25,298 bases of DNA from a virus, in IMG/VR virus record IMGVR_UViG_3300022594_000029, positions 1 through 25,298 of that record; one strand, 5' to 3'. Positions 8,733-20,886 of the stretch are shown here, in pieces (the stretch's first letter is position 1; every line of letters starts with the position of its first letter). The notes under the pieces were generated by a model. The model was given only the letters and a program-made list of their open reading frames with translations, had not been told where the DNA came from and made no database searches. The position numbers were made by a program, and so were the translations under genes.

Positions 8733-9449
8733 TTAAAGAATAACCCAACGGCTACGCGATGGAACAGTTACGGCGTTGCCGCTTGCAATTGTGATTGGCC
8801 CAACGGTGTTAGCGGTGAAACTTGTGGGGATAGTGTAGCTTGTGTTGACGGTTTGACCGTTCAGATTGAAGACCTGATCTGCACCGCCGCCTGTTGCGCC
8901 CCCACCCAGCTGGCCCCAAGCGCTGTTGGCGTAGCCTTCATATTTAAGCGTGGTGGTGTTGTAGCGAATGTCGCCGTCTACTGGAGAGGCAGGGCGTTGA
9001 GCAGTCGTGCCCGTGTTAATTTTGACAGCGCCTGTGCCTGAGAAAGTCACTGCGTCCGTAAAGTCAGCCGTGCTTTCAAATATCGCTGTGCTAGTGACGT
9101 TCAAAGTTGTAAACGTGCCTGCGTTAGGTGTGCCACTACCGATCGGAGGCGGTGAAGCAAAGGAGGTCGATGTCAGCGGTACGGAAACGTAATCGACCGT
9201 GTACAGCAGCGTGTCGGTGGATGTTTTTAAGACGTACTTGTAGTTGGTCGTATTGGGCAACCACACATCGGCTTCACCGTTGGAGTCCAAGATGACTGGG
9301 TTGGTGTTTTGCGTATTGCCTGTGTAGTCGGTATACGTCGCCAAAGGCGTTGTAGTGCCCGCGGCGTACGTGTACAGCTTACCGCCGACAAGCGGCAGCC
9401 CGTCAGTGCCGAAGAACTGTAGCTTGGGGGTGGGTGATAGTGATGCCAT
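8733..9449 (-). CDS. tail adaptor / short spike-like protein, 238 aa
   Basis: The N-terminal ~100 residues have the pattern common to phage tail-spike/fibre attachment domains: LQFFGTDGLPLVGGKLYTYA, AGTTTPLATYTDYTG, NTNPVILDSNGEADVWL and YKYVLKTSTDTLLYTVDYVS. A central segment contains TTAQRPASPVDGDIRYNTTT, a motif frequent in fibre proteins, and the C-terminus ends ITIASGNAVTVPSRSRWVIL. There is no large receptor-binding body. It lies where P22 carries its tailspike gene (after gp7, gp20 and gp16), so it may be the spike anchor, with small proteins downstream acting as exchangeable tips (inference). AAGGAA precedes the ATG. Confidence 0.8.
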   Translation of the reverse strand: MASLSPTPKLQFFGTDGLPLVGGKLYTYAAGTTTPLATYTDYTGNTQNTNPVILDSNGEADVWLPNTTNYKYVLKTSTDTLLYTVDYVSVPLTSTSFASPPPIGSGTPNAGTFTTLNVTSTAIFESTADFTDAVTFSGTGAVKINTGTTAQRPASPVDGDIRYNTTTLKYEGYANSAWGQLGGGATGGGADQVFNLNGQTVNTSYTIPTSFTANTVGPITIASGNAVTVPSRSRWVIL

Positions 9450-13372: not shown

Positions 13373-13735
13373 TTAAACTCCTTCGCTCAAACAATGAGCT
13401 ATTTCACGCACTTGTTCTGGATCGATGTCAGCAATAATTACTTCATCGACTTCATGTTCATCAGTGCAATCTGTTGCGTGAATGCAATACCAAACTACGT
13501 CTGTGAGAGATTTTACGCCGTGATGCTTGCCTGCTGCAATAGTTAAGCATGCAGGCGCATTAATTATTGACTTTTGACCATCAACGATCAGCTCAATTGA
13601 GCCTTTGGCCAACACAGACAAATGATCATGCTTGTGAGTATGCTGCACCAACCATTTGTCTGCGGGAATAAAGGTCTCTTTGGCGTACACACCGCCGCCG
13701 AAATGATGATTGACTTCAGGTTCAATAAAGCTCAT
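13373..13735 (-). CDS. cupin-fold protein, 120 aa
   Basis: A single small cupin domain. Motif 1 is visible as H32-x-H34-x3-H38-x6-G45, with His in place of the usual Glu; motif 2 is represented by G69-K-H71-H72-G with further H86. These residues could bind a metal ion. There is no added domain pointing to a substrate, so enzyme, sensor or purely structural use cannot be told apart. GGAGA precedes ATG 13735. It is locked into the late operon: ATGA overlap with the 113-aa gene and a 1-nt gap before the gp7-like gene. By gene order this is the P22 gp14 slot. Confidence 0.82.
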   Translation of the reverse strand: MSFIEPEVNHHFGGGVYAKETFIPADKWLVQHTHKHDHLSVLAKGSIELIVDGQKSIINAPACLTIAAGKHHGVKSLTDVVWYCIHATDCTDEHEVDEVIIADIDPEQVREIAHCLSEGV

Positions 13736-14073
13736 GAAATCTCCCGACCGCTAACACGAATGTTGATCGCGTTAGCTGCGCTGGCTACAGCTGAAATGAA
13801 GTCAGATGTTTGTAAGATTTGGCCCACAAGTTCAGGGAACGTGTAGACGTTGGACGGCGCCAAAGTGTATGTTTTGGTTATCAAATTCTTGTCTGCTGCT
13901 GAGTCAGGCGTAGTCACTACGTTGATGCTGACTGTAGCTGATGAACCGCTGATATTCGTGCAAGTGAACTTGTCAATGATCGTGGACGTAATAGTAAGCG
14001 GCACGGTGTACTGCGTCGTCTGAGCATTCTCGACAAACTTAGCGGGCACAAGGTTTTTTGCAGTGACAGTCAT
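13732..14073 (-). CDS. hypothetical virion-region protein, 113 aa
   Basis: I chose ATG 14073, which overlaps the fibre stop as ATGA, over an in-frame TTG at 14085. The protein is Thr/Ser/Val-rich and beta-like (for example AQTTQYTVPLTITSTIIDKF and SGSSATVSINVVTTPDSAAD) with a mixed C-terminal part (LVGQILQTSDFISAVASAAN). It looks like a small virion beta-sandwich similar in style to phage decoration proteins. No firm family. It is translationally coupled to both neighbours. Confidence 0.7.
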   Translation of the reverse strand: MTVTAKNLVPAKFVENAQTTQYTVPLTITSTIIDKFTCTNISGSSATVSINVVTTPDSAADKNLITKTYTLAPSNVYTFPELVGQILQTSDFISAVASAANAINIRVSGREIS

Positions 14074-16412
14074 AAGATAACCCAACGTGAGCCAGAAGGT
14101 ACAGTTACTTTAGCGCCAGACGCAATGGTTATTTTGCCTGCTGACATGGCGTTATTACCTGATGTGATCGTGTAATTGGATGAGATTGTGGCGCTATTCT
14201 CCCACAAACCTTGAGACGTAATGTTGCTGCTACCCGATGGCGTAGACCATGACAATGTGCCTGAGCCGTTTGTCGTTAAGGCTTGACCAGTCGTACCATC
14301 GGCTGAGGGTAATGTGTAGGTTGTAGAGCCAGCCACAGCGGCCGCTTGCAAGCCGACATAGCCAGATGTGCTGCCCATGAATTGGTGCGAACCTTTGGTC
14401 TGGAACAGCGTTGATGTAATCTGTGCACGCCATGCAGATTTGGCTTGAGTAAAGCCGCCCACATAGAACTGATGCGCGTTTGTTGAGCCAGTCGAATCAG
14501 TAGCGTAGACCAAGTTGCCTGACGCGCCTGCGCCAGATGGCGCAGAGCCAAACAAATAGGCTTCATTGGCGCCCGTAACGGTATAAGTTGCGTCGGCGTA
14601 CGTTTGGCTTGTAAAGCCCATGTCAGCCCAGCCGTGAGCGTCAGTGCTGTTGTTGGCATATGCAACCAAGTCAGCCGATGAGCTGATGCCGTTCTGGGAG
14701 TTATAGACGTAGGTCTGAACGTAGTTGGTCGTGCCAGGGTTGCCGGTAAACGCAGCCACGGGGTTTGTAAGGCCGCCCAAGGCCGCCGCCGCGCCAACCA
14801 GCAGATATGTGCCGTTGTACTGAAGTTGTGAGCTTGAGCTATACGCGCCAGTTCCATTACCGTAGGGAATGTAGTTGGCGGTCAGACTTGTCAGGCCAGT
14901 GCCACCGTTGGCCACAGCCACAGTTCCTGTGACGTTGGCGGCGTTGCCCGAAATGTTGCCAGACACTTGAGAGCCTGGCAGACTCAACGCGCTCAAGGTT
15001 GTTAAAGTCGAATTGCTTGTAGCTGTGATGTTTGACGCAGTGCCAGTGGTATTCTGGTTTAGCGTTGGGACATCTGCCGCTTGAATGGACGACATGACCA
15101 CGTTTGTGCCATTGCCACGCAAATACGAACCGCTTGTGACCGAACCAGCAAACGCGTTCATGGCCGCTTGTGCGGTGGTTTGACCCGACCCGCCGTTGGC
15201 AATAGCCACAGTTCCTGTGACGTTGCTGGCCGTGCCGGTAGTGTTCTGGTTAAGTGTAGGGAAATCAGCCGCTACCGCGATAGACAGAGCGCCTGTCGTG
15301 GTGGTGGACTTTAATATGCCCGTACCCAGCGACGAAGTGCCTGCCGAATAATCTGTGCCTGCGGTAGCCGCAGAAATAGCTGTGCCGTTGCCCTTGAGCA
15401 AGCCGGTGATGCTGGTCGATAAAGTCAGCGATGGTGTTGTGCCACCACTTGATGTGCCAGCAAAACCGTTGGCCGAGGCCACGGACACTGCGGTCAAATA
15501 TGAGCCTGCAGCTTGTTTACCGTTAAATGTGTTCCAGTCTGTCGAGCTCAGATAGCCGTTGGTCGACGTGGTGGCCTGCGTAATGCCAATAGTAGGGGTT
15601 AACCCTCCTGTTGACGTGATTGGTGCAGACACGCCGATGGAACTGACATAGCTTAATGCTGGAATGTCAGCCGACACCAAAGCTCGGAATGTAGGCACGC
15701 CAGCCGATCCGTTGGGTGCAGCCAACACATAGTTGGCTGTTTTGCTGGCGTATGGGTTTTGCGTGTCGCCATAACCTGACGCCAAACTGATAGCTGGCGT
15801 TGCGCCGCCAGACGACACCACAGGGCTTGTACCTGTGACGCTGGTAACTGTGCCGCTGCCAGTGCCTGCGCCGATCGCCGTGCGAAACGTAGCCGCATCC
15901 AGCGCGCTTACGCTGTTGTCAGCGTTGATCCGAACAAACGTGATCGCGCTGGGATTGGTCAGCGTGAAGAAGTTTTGGCCTACGGTTGTGCCACCCAATG
16001 ATGTGCGGCCAGTGGCTGCCACAAGACTGGTTGCCCCGCCGTCCCAATGCAAAGTATTGGTGTAGGCGGTGTCCCATTGAGTCTGTTTGGCTGTCGTGGG
16101 GATCGCATACCCAGACGCATAAGTCACGGCCAACGTGCCTGCTGTGGTGATAGGATTGCCAGATACGGCCAATCCTGTAGGCACTGTCATGTCCACCGAA
16201 GTTACGGTGCCTGTGCCTCCGCCGCTACTGCTGCCTGCAGGAGGGCCAACTTGCAAGTCTTCAAGCGATGTTTGGTTGCCGCCAGAGCCTGCCAAGCTGA
16301 ACAGATTTAAGAAAAACCTATACCATTCACGCGAAACTAACCCTGTCTTCGGGTCGATAAAATCGACGCGATTCGAAGGTATGTTTGTGACGTTTTGTTG
16401 AGAACTAGGCAT
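14070..16412 (-). CDS. repetitive tail fibre/needle-position protein, 780 aa
   Basis: The N-terminus (IPSNRVDFIDPKTGLVSREW, then YRFFLNLFSLAGSGG) is a recognisable virion-attachment segment shared by many phage tail proteins. The body is Gly/Ser/Thr-rich beta-repeat sequence with GTVTSV blocks and fibre motifs such as TLNQNTTGTASNVTGTVAIA followed by NGGSG, then a less repetitive region (about 555-690) and a C-terminus ending ITIASGAKVTVPSGSRWVIL. It directly follows the gp10-like gene with an 8-nt overlap, the position of the P22 gp26 needle, but it lacks the long coiled coil of gp26. It probably forms the distal tail or a side fibre. No pectate-lyase or hydrolase motif identified. Confidence 0.85.
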   Translation of the reverse strand: MPSSQQNVTNIPSNRVDFIDPKTGLVSREWYRFFLNLFSLAGSGGNQTSLEDLQVGPPAGSSSGGGTGTVTSVDMTVPTGLAVSGNPITTAGTLAVTYASGYAIPTTAKQTQWDTAYTNTLHWDGGATSLVAATGRTSLGGTTVGQNFFTLTNPSAITFVRINADNSVSALDAATFRTAIGAGTGSGTVTSVTGTSPVVSSGGATPAISLASGYGDTQNPYASKTANYVLAAPNGSAGVPTFRALVSADIPALSYVSSIGVSAPITSTGGLTPTIGITQATTSTNGYLSSTDWNTFNGKQAAGSYLTAVSVASANGFAGTSSGGTTPSLTLSTSITGLLKGNGTAISAATAGTDYSAGTSSLGTGILKSTTTTGALSIAVAADFPTLNQNTTGTASNVTGTVAIANGGSGQTTAQAAMNAFAGSVTSGSYLRGNGTNVVMSSIQAADVPTLNQNTTGTASNITATSNSTLTTLSALSLPGSQVSGNISGNAANVTGTVAVANGGTGLTSLTANYIPYGNGTGAYSSSSQLQYNGTYLLVGAAAALGGLTNPVAAFTGNPGTTNYVQTYVYNSQNGISSSADLVAYANNSTDAHGWADMGFTSQTYADATYTVTGANEAYLFGSAPSGAGASGNLVYATDSTGSTNAHQFYVGGFTQAKSAWRAQITSTLFQTKGSHQFMGSTSGYVGLQAAAVAGSTTYTLPSADGTTGQALTTNGSGTLSWSTPSGSSNITSQGLWENSATISSNYTITSGNNAMSAGKITIASGAKVTVPSGSRWVIL
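14887..15262 (-). repeat. degenerate internal repeats in the fibre gene
   Basis: Three units at roughly 14887-14955, 15021-15072 and 15184-15262 share DNA strings such as CCACAGTTCCTGTGACGTTG and CTGGTTTAGCGTTGGGA variants. They encode versions of PTLNQNTTGTASN-VTGTV and ANGGSG. Such repeats allow length change by recombination. Confidence 0.7.
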
Positions 16413-17847
16413 TGGTAGGCGTTACATGCAATTGAGCGCCCATGATAGCGATTTTTACGGGGTCTGTGCCCGAAACCTCGTACACACGGTCGCGTAATTT
16501 CAATGTCATACCTAGCCGACGCTGAATAGCGCGGTAAAAATACGCTCCAATTTTGCCCATGGACATCCAATATTCATTGGACCATGTATGGCCGCCATCA
16601 TCAGACCAGCGCAGCATCAGCTGTGGATCACTGCCTTGGCCAACATCAAGGCCAACGCCAGTCTGACAGTCAATCTGCAAGCTGTGATGTGCACTACGTT
16701 TTAAGTCATTTGTGCCCGTAGGCAGCGCGCGCCATGAGCGTAGCCATTTTTGAACGCCGCCGTTGTCTGAGTAGACGTTTAAGTCAAACGCATAGATGTT
16801 GCCGTTTGCGTAATCGCCGACCAGCACTTCATTGTCGAACACGAATTGACAGTTTGAACGATGACGAGCAAACGATCCGTTGTCCCAGCCAGCGCGCTCA
16901 TGCCATGCTTGAGTAGCCGCATCGTAAACCCAAGTGGTTTGCGCAGTTGGGAAGATCAGCACATAGAACGAATGGCCGTCTTGCTGGTATGTGTAGCCAA
17001 TAGCATCAGAGATGTCGCTGTACTCTTGAATTTGCCATTCAATAGCGTGCGTAGAAATGCGAATGCCTGTATAGCCGTTTGAACGGTACACAATACCTCG
17101 TCCACGCGAATCAGAACCTAGCCAGAAGATGCCGTTGTCCATTTTGGCCACCGAGTATGGGGCCGCGCATCCGAGCTCGTTAAAAGCCCCTTGGATGCGT
17201 TGCAAAGGGAAATTGGGTGTGCCTGCGTCATACCAGACTTCAACTGAGTTGGTACCGAACAGCCATGCTTCTTGGTGGTCGACAATAAGCGAGATCAACA
17301 AGTCAGGCGAGCCTTCAGCACTGGCAAAGCTCAAAGGATTGATTGACAAACCGTCCAAGAGCGCAGTAGTCCACACACGTGAACTGTTTGGCTCGTTAAA
17401 CACAAAATAGCCATCAAGGTAGCCAACAGTTACCGCGCCAGGGAAATCTGGGTCTGTAATCTGCTGAAATACGTTTGTGTTTGTGTTGTAGATAAAGCCG
17501 TCAGGGTTGCAAGCAATAAAGATTTGCGTGCCGTTGTCGGTGATGGACACAGGGCCAGTGCCGGTCACAGTACCAATCAGCGTGCCTTTGAGGCGTGTGC
17601 GACCATAGACTTGTACTTTGTAAAACTCAGTGCCAGACACAGCGTACATGACGCCTTTGGTTTGCCACATCCCGCGAATAGGGCCTGAACCAATCGTTGC
17701 TTTGCGCAACAGACCTGGGCAACGTGACAAAAACGCTGCTTCCTTGCCGCCCTCGGGAATGATCTCGGGGTACAAATTGACCATGCGGTTATCCGCAGCA
17801 TTGACGCTGCGGGCCACATAAGACGAGCCAAGGATGGGCGATTTCAT
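16405..17847 (-). CDS. tail protein, P22 gp10-like (packaged-DNA stabilisation protein)
   Basis: 480 aa, close to P22 gp10 (472 aa). The N-terminal SPILGSSYVARSVNAADNRM, VNLYPEIIPEGGKEAAFLSR and CPGLL are characteristic of this phage stabilisation family, followed by a beta-propeller-like series of Gly/Trp-containing strands (for example FNELGCAAPYSVAKMDNGIF and WLGSDSRGRGIVYRSNGYTG). In P22, gp10 hexamers attach below gp4 to close the portal and carry the needle and spikes. I start at ATG 17847 (TGATG overlap with gp4-like) rather than TTG 17850. Confidence 0.92.
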   Translation of the reverse strand: MKSPILGSSYVARSVNAADNRMVNLYPEIIPEGGKEAAFLSRCPGLLRKATIGSGPIRGMWQTKGVMYAVSGTEFYKVQVYGRTRLKGTLIGTVTGTGPVSITDNGTQIFIACNPDGFIYNTNTNVFQQITDPDFPGAVTVGYLDGYFVFNEPNSSRVWTTALLDGLSINPLSFASAEGSPDLLISLIVDHQEAWLFGTNSVEVWYDAGTPNFPLQRIQGAFNELGCAAPYSVAKMDNGIFWLGSDSRGRGIVYRSNGYTGIRISTHAIEWQIQEYSDISDAIGYTYQQDGHSFYVLIFPTAQTTWVYDAATQAWHERAGWDNGSFARHRSNCQFVFDNEVLVGDYANGNIYAFDLNVYSDNGGVQKWLRSWRALPTGTNDLKRSAHHSLQIDCQTGVGLDVGQGSDPQLMLRWSDDGGHTWSNEYWMSMGKIGAYFYRAIQRRLGMTLKLRDRVYEVSGTDPVKIAIMGAQLHVTPTNA

Positions 17848-18560
17848 CAATAGTTACCAGCGTAGATGTTGAATCGTTGGCGGTTGGCCACCATGGCGTA
17901 TGGCATGGCCATCACGTCATCTGGGTTGTTGATACGCTTCAAATCACGCTTAGAAGTCATTGCAATGCGCTGAACTTGAGGCGAAGGCTCAACGCCAAAC
18001 TCAGGCGCAAACTCCATCGCCAAGTTGTACGTAAACGCACGCAGATAACCTGGTGGGTAGTACATTACCGTGTCTAGCGTGGCTGGACGATCCAATTCTT
18101 GCGCTGAAATCAAGTGCCACACCAAGTCTTGTGTAGGCTTGGGATAGACAGTCAATGTGACGTCAGGAAAGCCCATGTTTACCCAGCAAACTTGCGGGTA
18201 AGTAGACGTGACAGTTTTGACGGCGATACCGTCATATTGTTGTTGGTTGATGAACTTGATGCCGTACGACACGCCGTTGGGCGCAACGTAGTATGTAGCA
18301 TCATCCATCAAGATAGGGCGCAAGCCTACAAAGTCACCTGAAGGACCCAAGTCTCGGCTGATATAGCCTGCGGGCCAAGTAAACACTTGGTCTTGAGTCA
18401 CAAACGTAGACAAGCTCTCGGTGTTCCAAGAATCAATCATTTGATTCAAGGCCATCAAGGCATCTTGAGACATGGCCGCGGAAGGTGTTTCACCTTCAGC
18501 AAGAATACCCAGCAGACGCAGGGCTCGGTTAATCTGATCGCCAGCTGTGTATGTGGCCAT
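17847..18560 (-). CDS. tail accessory factor, P22 gp4-like head-tail adaptor
   Basis: 237 aa; P22 gp4 is 166 aa, so this is a longer family member. The diagnostic N-terminal helix-turn-helix block is GDQINRALRLLGILAEGETP followed by SAAMSQDALMALNQMIDSWN. The middle is beta-rich (FPDVTLTVYPKPTQDLVWHL) and the C-terminal part is helical (LAMEFAPEFGVEPSPQVQRI). It binds the portal ring as the first tail component and stabilises packaged DNA. P22 gp4 has also been described as muralytic; no catalytic residues can be assigned here by eye. Confidence 0.9.
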   Translation of the reverse strand: MATYTAGDQINRALRLLGILAEGETPSAAMSQDALMALNQMIDSWNTESLSTFVTQDQVFTWPAGYISRDLGPSGDFVGLRPILMDDATYYVAPNGVSYGIKFINQQQYDGIAVKTVTSTYPQVCWVNMGFPDVTLTVYPKPTQDLVWHLISAQELDRPATLDTVMYYPPGYLRAFTYNLAMEFAPEFGVEPSPQVQRIAMTSKRDLKRINNPDDVMAMPYAMVANRQRFNIYAGNY

Positions 18561-18562
18561 AT

Positions 18563-18748
18563 TTAAGCCTCTTCTGTAACTACTTTTCTACGGCGTTTGA
18601 CTTCCAGCACGTTTACAGGAGCCACCTCTTCAGAAGGTGTATCCAGAGTATATCGTACCCAGCCATTTTTCTCGTCAGCAACTGCTTCTTCTTCCATGTT
18701 TGCCACTTTAGCGCCGTGGACGTCATGTTTCATGTAGATAACTGGCAT
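18563..18748 (-). CDS. small head-region protein, 61 aa
   Basis: Begins MPVIYMKHDVHGAKVANMEE and has E-K-N-G-W-V-x-Y midway, then a basic end (VLEVKRRRKVVTEE). Short proteins with a Y-M-K-H-x-x-H-G start and an NGW motif recur next to coat genes in tailed phages; function not established. Its ribosome site (AGGA) lies within the U-rich tail of the hairpin at 18761-18784, so expression may depend on readthrough of that structure. Confidence 0.75.
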   Translation of the reverse strand: MPVIYMKHDVHGAKVANMEEEAVADEKNGWVRYTLDTPSEEVAPVNVLEVKRRRKVVTEEA

Positions 18749-18760
18749 TTATATTCCTAA

Positions 18761-18784
18761 AAACGGGAGCCGAAGCCCCCATTT
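18761..18784 (-). terminator. UUCG-loop hairpin H3 after the 134-aa gene
   Basis: In minus-strand RNA a 10-bp stem closes a C(UUCG)G tetraloop: AAAUGGGGGC-UUCG-GCUCCCGUUU. Two of the pairs are G-U wobbles that would be A-C mismatches in the plus-strand RNA, so the structure works only in the late-transcript direction. It starts 3 nt after the stop codon at 18788 and runs into UUUUUA. Of the three related hairpins it is the best intrinsic terminator candidate. Confidence 0.75.
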
Positions 18785-18787
18785 AAT

Positions 18788-19192
18788 TTACGCACCGTGA
18801 ATGATGGCAAAGTTGATGACAACAGCTTCAGACAACGTGCCGCCTGAAATGTTGCGCAACGTGATGCTGACAGAACCAGCAGCCAACGAATTGGCAAACA
18901 CGTTGTATGAACCTGGAGTAGCTTGTCCACCAGAAATGGTCAACAAAACAGAGTCATTGACGCTGAGAAGCGCGTTGTTCAAAGTGAACGTAGCGTTGGT
19001 AGCAGTAGCCAAAGAAGCGTTGTTCATTGTGATACGACCGCAAGACTTGTCCAGCGTGACCGCCGTGGACTTGCTTGTCAGTTGAGTCACAGCACCTTGA
19101 GCAGCGGCTGCGTAGCCAATCTCCTCAGTTGCGTAGCATGTGCTGAACTCGGGGTCCAGATATGCAACGCCAATAGCTTTGGTATTTGACAT
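18788..19192 (-). CDS. probable capsid decoration protein, 134 aa
   Basis: Beta-rich protein with the block VTLDKSCGRITMNNASL then FTLNNALLSVNDSVLLTISG and GSVSITLRNISGGTLSEAVV. I recognise this pattern from small virion proteins of many environmental phages, where it has a decoration or outer-capsid type of architecture, although a named family escapes me. AAAGGA precedes the ATG; its own transcript ends or is protected by hairpin H3. High expression is expected from its place right after the coat gene. Confidence 0.72.
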   Translation of the reverse strand: MSNTKAIGVAYLDPEFSTCYATEEIGYAAAAQGAVTQLTSKSTAVTLDKSCGRITMNNASLATATNATFTLNNALLSVNDSVLLTISGGQATPGSYNVFANSLAAGSVSITLRNISGGTLSEAVVINFAIIHGA

Positions 19193-19206
19193 GATGTTTC
19201 CTTTAG

Positions 19207-19230
19207 AAATAGGGGCCGAAGCCCCTATTT
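19207..19230 (-). terminator. UUCG-loop hairpin H2 after the 129-aa gene
   Basis: A perfect 10-bp stem with C(UUCG)G tetraloop in minus-strand RNA: AAAUAGGGGC-UUCG-GCCCCUAUUU, beginning 1 nt after the stop codon at 19232. No long U-run follows (CUAAAGG), so it is at best a leaky terminator and could equally be a 3'-end stabiliser or processing signal. The next gene's AAAGGA ribosome site starts just after the stem. Confidence 0.75.
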
Positions 19231-19231
19231 A

Positions 19232-19621
19232 TTAAGACAAGCGGTACAAAGTCCAAGCACCGTTAGCTGTTTTGCGAACAGCAAAACGGCCAGAAGTGCC
19301 GTTGGTAACTGCAGCAGAACCAACAATTGTCCAGCCAGTGTTGGTGGTCAATGAAGGAGTGCCAGCACCAGTTGCAATCACGCTCAAAGTGAAAGCATAG
19401 TTTGACTTAGACACGGTGATGACGTTTTCAACGTCAGACACCAAAGGCAACTGCAAGTTAGCAGTAGCTCCAGAGTAAGTCAGGATGCCTGCGCTGATGT
19501 CAGCAACAGTCAAAGTAGCGGCAGCAGCGTAAGCAGCTGGGTTACCTTGATCATAAATTTCAACTTCGTTCAGATTGCCGTCACCAACTTGATAACCGCC
19601 TGCGCCATTTGGGAGTGCCAT
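19232..19621 (-). CDS. small virion protein, candidate decoration protein, 129 aa
   Basis: N-terminus MALPNGAGGYQVGDGNLNEV, then beta-strand-rich sequence (ATLTVADISAGILTYSGATA, QLPLVSDVENVI and GRFAVRKTANGAWTLYRLS). It has the look of a beta-sandwich/tulip-type capsid-associated protein. It is flanked by hairpins H1 (upstream) and H2 (immediately after its stop), which isolates it as its own transcript segment between coat and the 134-aa gene. No further family assignment. Confidence 0.72.
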   Translation of the reverse strand: MALPNGAGGYQVGDGNLNEVEIYDQGNPAAYAAAATLTVADISAGILTYSGATANLQLPLVSDVENVITVSKSNYAFTLSVIATGAGTPSLTTNTGWTIVGSAAVTNGTSGRFAVRKTANGAWTLYRLS

Positions 19622-19651
19622 GATAGATTTCCTTAAAAAAGAGTTTGCGAA

Positions 19652-19674
19652 GAAAGGGGCCGAAGCCCCGTTTC
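19652..19674 (-). terminator. UUCG-loop hairpin H1 after the coat gene
   Basis: Minus-strand RNA forms GAAA(C)GGGGC-UUCG-GCCCCUUUC, a 9-bp stem with one bulged C, starting 3 nt after the coat stop at 19678. The 3' side reads CUUUCUUCGC, a weak U-tract. It belongs to the same family as the hairpins at 19207-19230 and 18761-18784. Confidence 0.75.
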
Positions 19675-19677
19675 AGA

Positions 19678-20886
19678 TTAGCCCCAGAGGCGAACAGCCA
19701 TTTGTGGGCGGATTGTGCTGTAGCCATACAACACGTCGATACGGCAAGGCATACGATCGTTGTTGATGTCGTATTGGCGAACCACACGCAAGCTGATGCC
19801 ATTGTGTTGAGCGCGAGCAGCCATGTCCACGCCTTGTGGGAGCAACAAGTCGGCTGTAGCGAAGGTGATCGCATCTTTGTGGTACACCAAGTTTTGAGCG
19901 TACTGAGTAGACGCAGCACCCACAAACACAACAGCAGAACCGGAAGCAGGGAAGCTGTCCACGGTAGCCAAAGCATTGGTCGATGTGTAGATAGGAGCAA
20001 CAGTGATGCTACCGGCACCAGAGCTGTCCAAAGTCACGTTTGCAGTAGCAACGAACTGGAACAACGAACCGGTAGATTCACGAGTTTGTGGGTTGACAGC
20101 ATAGCAGCCAGCCACAGTGAACACGTCGCCGATTTTTACAGTACCTGCGTTACCAGCGCCAGTGATAGCGATAGTAGTTGCGCCTTGTGCAGACACAGAA
20201 GCAGACAAAGTGCCGCCAGTAGCAGTACGTGAGCCAGTTGTGAATTGCTTGATAGATTGAGACATGTTGATCTCATCAAAGCCCAACACGCCTTCGCCCA
20301 TCATGCCATTCTTGAATTGCTTGCTGATAGTGTCTGTTGGGTTAAACAGACCTTTCATGCCTTCAACCAAACCTGCGTTAGCAGCTGGGTTGACGGTAGC
20401 GTAACGTGGGCTCATGGTAGCTGCGTTTTCGTTCAACTTTTGTTGGGCTTGCAACAAGACCAAAGAAGTCGAAGGAGTAGTACCAGGAGTACCAACAGTG
20501 TTACCAACGCCAAGGTATGCGTTAGCCACGTCAGCATCGATAGAAGATGCCAATTGGCTGATACGAGGCTTCAACACACGTTCAGCGAAGTCGTCCAATT
20601 GCATGGTCAATTCAGCAGATGTGAAGTTAACACCAATGTGCTTTTGGTTGGCGACAGTCAAAGTTGTGTACTGTTCGTTGTCGTCTTGCACTTGCAAGGC
20701 GGCGCCGTCAGTCACCAAAGCGCGGTCGGGCAAACGGATACGCAAAGTTGAGCCGATTTTCGCGCCTTCGACAGCGAAGCTATCGTCGTACTGGCGGTTC
20801 ACGTTACGTGTGATGACCAAGTTGTTCTCGAGGATTTCGAGAGACTTGCGGGTGATCATGTCGATCGTTAAGATACTGTTTGACAT
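19678..20886 (-). CDS. major capsid (coat) protein, P22 gp5-like
   Basis: 402 aa (P22 gp5 is 430). The N-terminal SNSILTIDMITRKSLEILEN, LVITRNVNRQYDD and KIGSTLRIRLPDRA are characteristic of the P22 coat family (HK97 fold). The central beta-rich insertion (about 220-320, containing SAQGATTIAITGAGNAGTVK) corresponds in place to the P22 I-domain, and the C-terminus LRVVRQYDINNDRMPCRIDV then YGYSTIRPQMAVRLWG is typical. It forms the T=7-type shell with scaffold help. AAAGGAC precedes the ATG; hairpin H1 follows the stop. Confidence 0.94.
   Translation of the reverse strand: MSNSILTIDMITRKSLEILENNLVITRNVNRQYDDSFAVEGAKIGSTLRIRLPDRALVTDGAALQVQDDNEQYTTLTVANQKHIGVNFTSAELTMQLDDFAERVLKPRISQLASSIDADVANAYLGVGNTVGTPGTTPSTSLVLLQAQQKLNENAATMSPRYATVNPAANAGLVEGMKGLFNPTDTISKQFKNGMMGEGVLGFDEINMSQSIKQFTTGSRTATGGTLSASVSAQGATTIAITGAGNAGTVKIGDVFTVAGCYAVNPQTRESTGSLFQFVATANVTLDSSGAGSITVAPIYTSTNALATVDSFPASGSAVVFVGAASTQYAQNLVYHKDAITFATADLLLPQGVDMAARAQHNGISLRVVRQYDINNDRMPCRIDVLYGYSTIRPQMAVRLWG

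Follow-up and report, generated by a model that had tools for sequence, protein, structure and literature searches.

The late operon of this podovirus carries three very stable RNA hairpins: the coat gene and the two small genes that follow it each have one just past the stop. Relatives keep their structure and position, the hairpins are limited to this trio of genes, and each has a U-tract. The probable explanation, in our judgment, is that they are leaky intrinsic terminators within a single late operon, and also probable protectors of mRNA 3' ends, that favor coat and accessory mRNA. Three partial intrinsic terminators would thus lie after coat and after each of two small genes, the first of which encodes a candidate capsid spike. 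At each hairpin some RNA polymerases would stop, and the rest would continue into the 61-aa gene, tail adaptor, head closure, and tail genes, with the outcome that coat and accessory mRNA would outnumber tail mRNA; the same very stable stem would probably shield the 3' ends produced by termination. All parts of this model are proposed from sequence: that termination occurs, that it is partial, that 3' ends are protected, and that protein ratios change.

Three hairpins in the late operon

The window is the whole virus record (25.3 kb) of a phage with a P22-type coat and portal, described as freshwater-type; no tRNA or tmRNA was found in it. Late genes on the minus strand run in the order portal, two small genes, scaffold, coat (402 aa), 129-aa gene, 134-aa gene, 61-aa gene, tail adaptor, head closure, and tail genes. 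The features relevant here, in the direction of transcription, are as follows.

19678..20886, minus strand: major coat protein, P22 type, 402 aa (PF11651, E 1e-39; phrog_283, E 7e-76)
19652..19674, minus strand: hairpin 1, after coat, GAAA-c-GGGGC-UUCG-GCCCC-UUUC (5 bp, bulged C, 4 bp)
19630..19640, minus strand: U-run and Shine-Dalgarno (UUUUUUAAGGA) ahead of the 129-aa gene, distinct from the hairpin 1 U-tract
19232..19621, minus strand: 129-aa protein, candidate capsid spike/decoration protein (AlphaFold pLDDT 88; Foldseek 9ny6_C, E 8e-6)
19207..19230, minus strand: hairpin 2, after the 129-aa gene, AAAUAGGGGC-UUCG-GCCCCUAUUU, 10 bp
19199..19204, minus strand: Shine-Dalgarno AAAGGA of the 134-aa gene, immediately past hairpin 2
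18788..19192, minus strand: 134-aa all-beta protein, corresponding to the C-terminal part of phrog_18251 (weak fold matches)
18761..18784, minus strand: hairpin 3, after the 134-aa gene, AAAUGGGGGC-UUCG-GCUCCCGUUU, 10 bp including U-G and G-U wobbles
18755..18760, minus strand: end of U-run and Shine-Dalgarno (UUAGGA) of the 61-aa gene, immediately past hairpin 3
18561..18748, minus strand: 61-aa protein, first gene past hairpin 3, without a hairpin after it
17847..18560, minus strand: 237-aa tail adaptor-like protein (phrog_12985; head-tail adaptor phrog_637)
16405..17850, minus strand: 481-aa head closure protein, P22 gp10-like (phrog_578)

The initial annotation placed each hairpin 1 to 3 nt past a stop codon, and this is borne out: the stops of the coat gene (TAA, 19680-19678), the 129-aa gene (19234-19232), and the 134-aa gene (18790-18788), all on the minus strand, are followed by hairpins that start 3, 1, and 3 nt on. 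When both strands were scanned, these were the sole C(UUCG)G stem-loops of at least 5 bp in the window, far above chance; 300 dinucleotide shuffles gave a mean of 0.027 such stems per strand and never three. Fold z-scores were −1.7, −3.7, and −2.5 for hairpins 1, 2, and 3, and Rfam covariance models gave no match in the window above the gathering threshold.

The proposal that the structures form only in late-strand RNA held in part. Hairpin 3 is strand specific (−6.6 on the plus strand versus −15.2 on the minus), and the UUCG loop is present only in minus-strand RNA for all three, but hairpins 1 and 2 fold about equally well on the plus strand (−12.7 versus −15.5 and −17.5 versus −17.3).

Structure is conserved among relatives

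A scan of viral contigs provided 80 close relatives, to which the hairpin survey added ten named phages. We counted a hairpin as stable if it folded below −12 kcal/mol within 50 nt of the stop. By this measure 91% of coat genes, 99% of 129-aa genes, and 94% of 134-aa genes in the combined set are followed by a stable hairpin (the coat slot likewise has one in 91% of the 80 close relatives), compared with 3% for scaffold, 14% for portal, 5% for the 61-aa gene, 17% for the adaptor, 9% for head closure, and 15% for random stretches. Seven near-complete relatives have between them 19 UUCG or UACG stems with a G/C closing pair, of which 17 sit after coat or after the next one or two genes.

Because the relatives are akin to one another, these percentages are not independent trials, and the case rests more firmly on compensatory changes. 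At the coat, 129-aa, and 134-aa places we counted 33, 38, and 20 distinct stem cores, respectively. Where the loop is 4 nt, the five pairs nearest it are paired in every distinct hairpin despite switches among G-C, C-G, A-U, and G-U. The paired fraction of stem partners is 0.86 to 0.93 against a shuffle maximum of 0.59 to 0.76, and shuffling partners lowers the overall paired fraction to 0.54 to 0.68. The usual loop is UUCG, although UACG, UUUG, UUAG, UCCG, and the 7-nt CUAAUCA also occur. From this pattern of substitution we conclude that the relatives' hairpins are under selection for structure. Lack of structure conservation in homologous phages was the result named in the initial annotation as counting against its interpretation; conservation was clearly found instead, in both position and compensatory changes.

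Several further observations concern the hairpins as a family. In the 134-aa slot, 15 relatives have GGGGG-CUAAUCA-CCCCC, whose 7-nt loop is nearly invariant and is followed by variable sequence. At least five close relatives (L004, L005, L007, L050, and L072) lack the coat hairpin and keep the Shine-Dalgarno region of the next gene; these natural deletions would be useful for comparing expression. Homogenization of hairpins within a genome is weak at best, since similarity within genomes versus between near relatives was 0.85 versus 0.79 for hairpins 1 and 2, with little difference for other pairs. An extra UUCG stem within the 134-aa frame of many relatives (TTTCnGGCGG-TTCG-CTGTCnGAAG) was set aside as coding driven, since it overlaps a conserved protein motif. 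A DNA search of named phages with the consensus hairpin returned short, weak matches in 416 scattered records from many unrelated phages, as expected since this stem type is common.

Evidence bearing on the proposed leaky termination

The window offers a stable, G/C-rich stem-loop in the transcribed strand with a U-rich tract just past the stem, as expected for an intrinsic terminator; the U-tract is confounded by the nearby Shine-Dalgarno sequences and is missing past the coat hairpin of a sister clade (see below). Past the loop, hairpin 1 reads GCCCCUUUC and then UUCG, and its U-tract, UUUCUU, overlaps the lower stem. The initial annotation saw a convincing U-tract only in the third hairpin and suggested a graded set. 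The first point does not hold up, as each of the three has 5 U's in the 8 nt past its G/C core; the second lacks support, as predicted terminator scores for hairpins 1, 2, and 3 are similar (24.8, 20.2, and 24.8; a d'Aubenton-Carafa-type score whose calibration used only random windows from these loci). Its broader suggestion of leaky terminators or 3'-end stabilizers does remain the best reading, with structure conservation in its favor.

Among relatives, the median U count over the same 8 nt is 4 to 5, against a background of 1.8. Scores exceed 0 for 79%, 99%, and 94% of the coat, 129-aa, and 134-aa groups, compared with ∼1% of random windows and 0 to 1% of sites after neighboring genes. Elsewhere in near-complete relatives, the strongest sites of terminator type reach ∼41 to 57 and presumably mark operon ends; they have longer U-tracts and other loops. 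Coat-region hairpins in the same comparison score ∼17 to 40, and these lower values fit weaker, leaky stops. Complete termination is unlikely because the downstream genes, which seem to lack a promoter of their own, would be silenced: we found no σ70-like site between hairpin 3 and the adaptor gene, though the late genes may use a different kind of promoter.

Some of the U signal may be there for translation. The tracts are short (5 of 8), those of hairpins 2 and 3 merge with the Shine-Dalgarno that follows, and the coat gene, with no hairpin ahead of it, has a similar U-run before its own Shine-Dalgarno. Terminators would also be ignored if late transcription were antiterminated. Neither a Q antiterminator (PF06530) nor a T7-type RNA polymerase turned up in 13 relatives; the polymerase result is uninformative, since the control genomes were negative as well.

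A strong terminator-like stem (TGGCGCC-CAA-GGCGCCA, followed by TTTATTGG) also lies within the portal coding sequence at 23461-23445 on the minus strand, where it is probably masked by translation.

Hairpins after coat in more distant phages, and alternative roles

A hairpin after coat recurs in more distant P22-coat clades, at 59% in the P26218 clade, 73% in the PAE2 clade, and 98% in the Vibrio phage clade, compared with 3 to 12% of random windows; named phages with such a stem-loop are PAE2, PBR31, BA3, P26218, EBPR podovirus 1, and DSL-LC05. The hairpins of the Vibrio clade and of a large part of the PAE2 clade are textbook intrinsic terminators with long U-tracts and varied loops, and several P26218-clade coat hairpins have negative terminator scores. 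The sister clade of the window's own group has a coat hairpin of non-GGGGC stem, mostly of GGCCCUCGG type (GGCCCUCGG-UUCG-CCGGGGGCC-AAC), and the letters right past it are mainly A rather than U. Since this clade keeps the hairpin without a proximal U-tract, termination may not be the coat hairpin's sole role. Together with the U-run that precedes the coat Shine-Dalgarno without a hairpin, the A-rich sequence past this stem makes it likely that the stem itself has a role in at least some lineages, of which 3'-end protection is the simplest.

Some of these observations also favor a reading in which the hairpins act mainly as elements of 3' mRNA stability or processing: the UUCG stem would block 3'-5' exonucleases on ends made elsewhere by processing or by Rho, so that coat and decoration mRNA would last longer while little termination took place. 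The sister clade and some P26218-clade phages keep the hairpin without a proximal U-tract, pairing stays while loops and stems drift, and a passage of PMC8948821 ties a T4 CUUCGG hairpin to mRNA stability. However, U's are enriched right past the stem in the window's own clade, and other clades have textbook terminators at this place. We regard stability as the main function as possible but unlikely.

A more general rule is doubtful, somewhat more so than the stability reading: that in this phage group every small gene placed between coat and the tail-adaptor module needs a very stable stem-loop at its end, one that marks and protects the 3' end rather than terminating. Its non-terminating job is suggested by clades that keep the hairpin without a U-tract. 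If the rule were true, each capsid-accessory message would be a modular expression unit with a protected 3' end; we found no description of such a unit in the literature.

We consider it improbable that the hairpins are translational insulators, in which a stem between a stop and the next Shine-Dalgarno would uncouple the genes and leave the start site unstructured, allowing each to be translated at a high rate. Nearly all other neighbors among the listed late genes overlap or almost touch, the hairpins occupy three of the rare gaps, and hairpins 2 and 3 stop just short of a Shine-Dalgarno, a few nucleotides ahead of it. Hairpin 1, however, ends ∼18 nt ahead of the next one; coat, probably the most expressed gene, has no hairpin ahead of its start (3% after scaffold); and relatives without the coat hairpin retain a normal start for the next gene. 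Very improbable is a role in DNA only, as palindromic recombination patches for swapping small capsid-accessory genes: the hairpins do persist while slot genes vary between relatives, but they differ between slots of one genome and drift with compensation, whereas recombination needs sequence identity, and the wobble pairs of hairpin 3 preserve RNA rather than DNA pairing.

Genes in the hairpin-ended slots

Between coat and the 61-aa gene, relatives have zero to two small genes, dominated by the 129-aa and 134-aa families; single relatives have other ORFs of 78 to 172 aa, which in close relatives are hairpin ended too. Profile searches found no family match for the 129-aa protein, but its predicted fold is similar to that of the Pseudomonas phage Pa223 capsid spike. 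This similarity favors a capsid-accessory role and makes the protein a candidate spike or decoration protein.

The initial annotation took the repeated gene-plus-hairpin cassette as a sign of duplication or modular acquisition. Duplication we reject: the 129-aa and 134-aa proteins have no sequence similarity, their predicted folds differ, and hairpin 3 tracks coat. Nor does hairpin 3 appear to travel with its decoration gene, since its distances correlate with those of coat (partial r = 0.39) and not with those of the 134-aa gene (0.05). Modular acquisition has gained some support from the other small genes in these slots that also end in a hairpin. Hairpin 3 goes with the genome lineage more than with its own gene, which suggests a turnover of genes in slots that continue to end in a hairpin.

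Relation to known systems

In T7, a terminator lies immediately past coat gene 10, and read-through is the sole source of transcripts of genes 11 and 12 (PMC5592923); in the T7-like phage LUZ100, what appears to be a strong terminator immediately follows the major capsid gene (PMC10134795). The window matches the position of a Tφ-type attenuator, with a candidate terminator directly after coat and tail genes downstream in the same direction. T7 uses one terminator and a phage RNA polymerase; here as many as three follow one another, behind coat and accessory genes.

Phage intergenic gaps with C(UUCG)G-closed stems were known as early as Tuerk et al. 1988, according to a passage of PMC8948821, and by the definition in that passage the window's hairpins belong with the intercistronic CUUCGG hairpins of T4 and other phages. 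They differ in being confined to three slots of one operon, in being conserved in position, and in that loop and stem change (UUCG, UACG, UUUG, and CUAAUCA), such that UUCG is not obligatory. The Rho-independent terminators of Vibrio phages, Thalassomonas phage BA3, and Xanthomonas phage PBR31 occupy the same place after coat; their U-tracts are clearer and their loops mostly other, whereas the U-tracts in the window are shorter, and those of hairpins 2 and 3 continue into the next ribosome-binding site.

Leaky stop signals that favor coat over tail expression, the most likely role of these hairpins, are a solution already known in other phages, to which the hairpins add members. More unusual are the succession of three, their restriction to these genes, and the fact that they persist when slot contents change and even where no proximal U-tract is present. 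That a hairpin after coat recurs across several P22-coat clades with very different sequences suggests that RNA hairpins often set coat-to-tail dosage. Since public records name hosts for PAE2, PBR31, P26218, and the Vibrio phages, mapping of RNA 3' ends could test this idea. As markers of where fast-changing capsid-accessory genes end, the hairpins could also aid the search for such genes in metagenomes.

Other features of the minus strand

Two proteins, of 780 aa (14070-16412) and 238 aa (8733-9449), end in a common motif, ...VTVPS.SRWVIL, which suggests a shared C-terminal module; they are otherwise different and are probably tail or fiber proteins. Among the tail genes, 13373-13735 encodes a 120-aa protein that by eye has a cupin-like look and a histidine-rich HTHKHDHLSVLAKG stretch.
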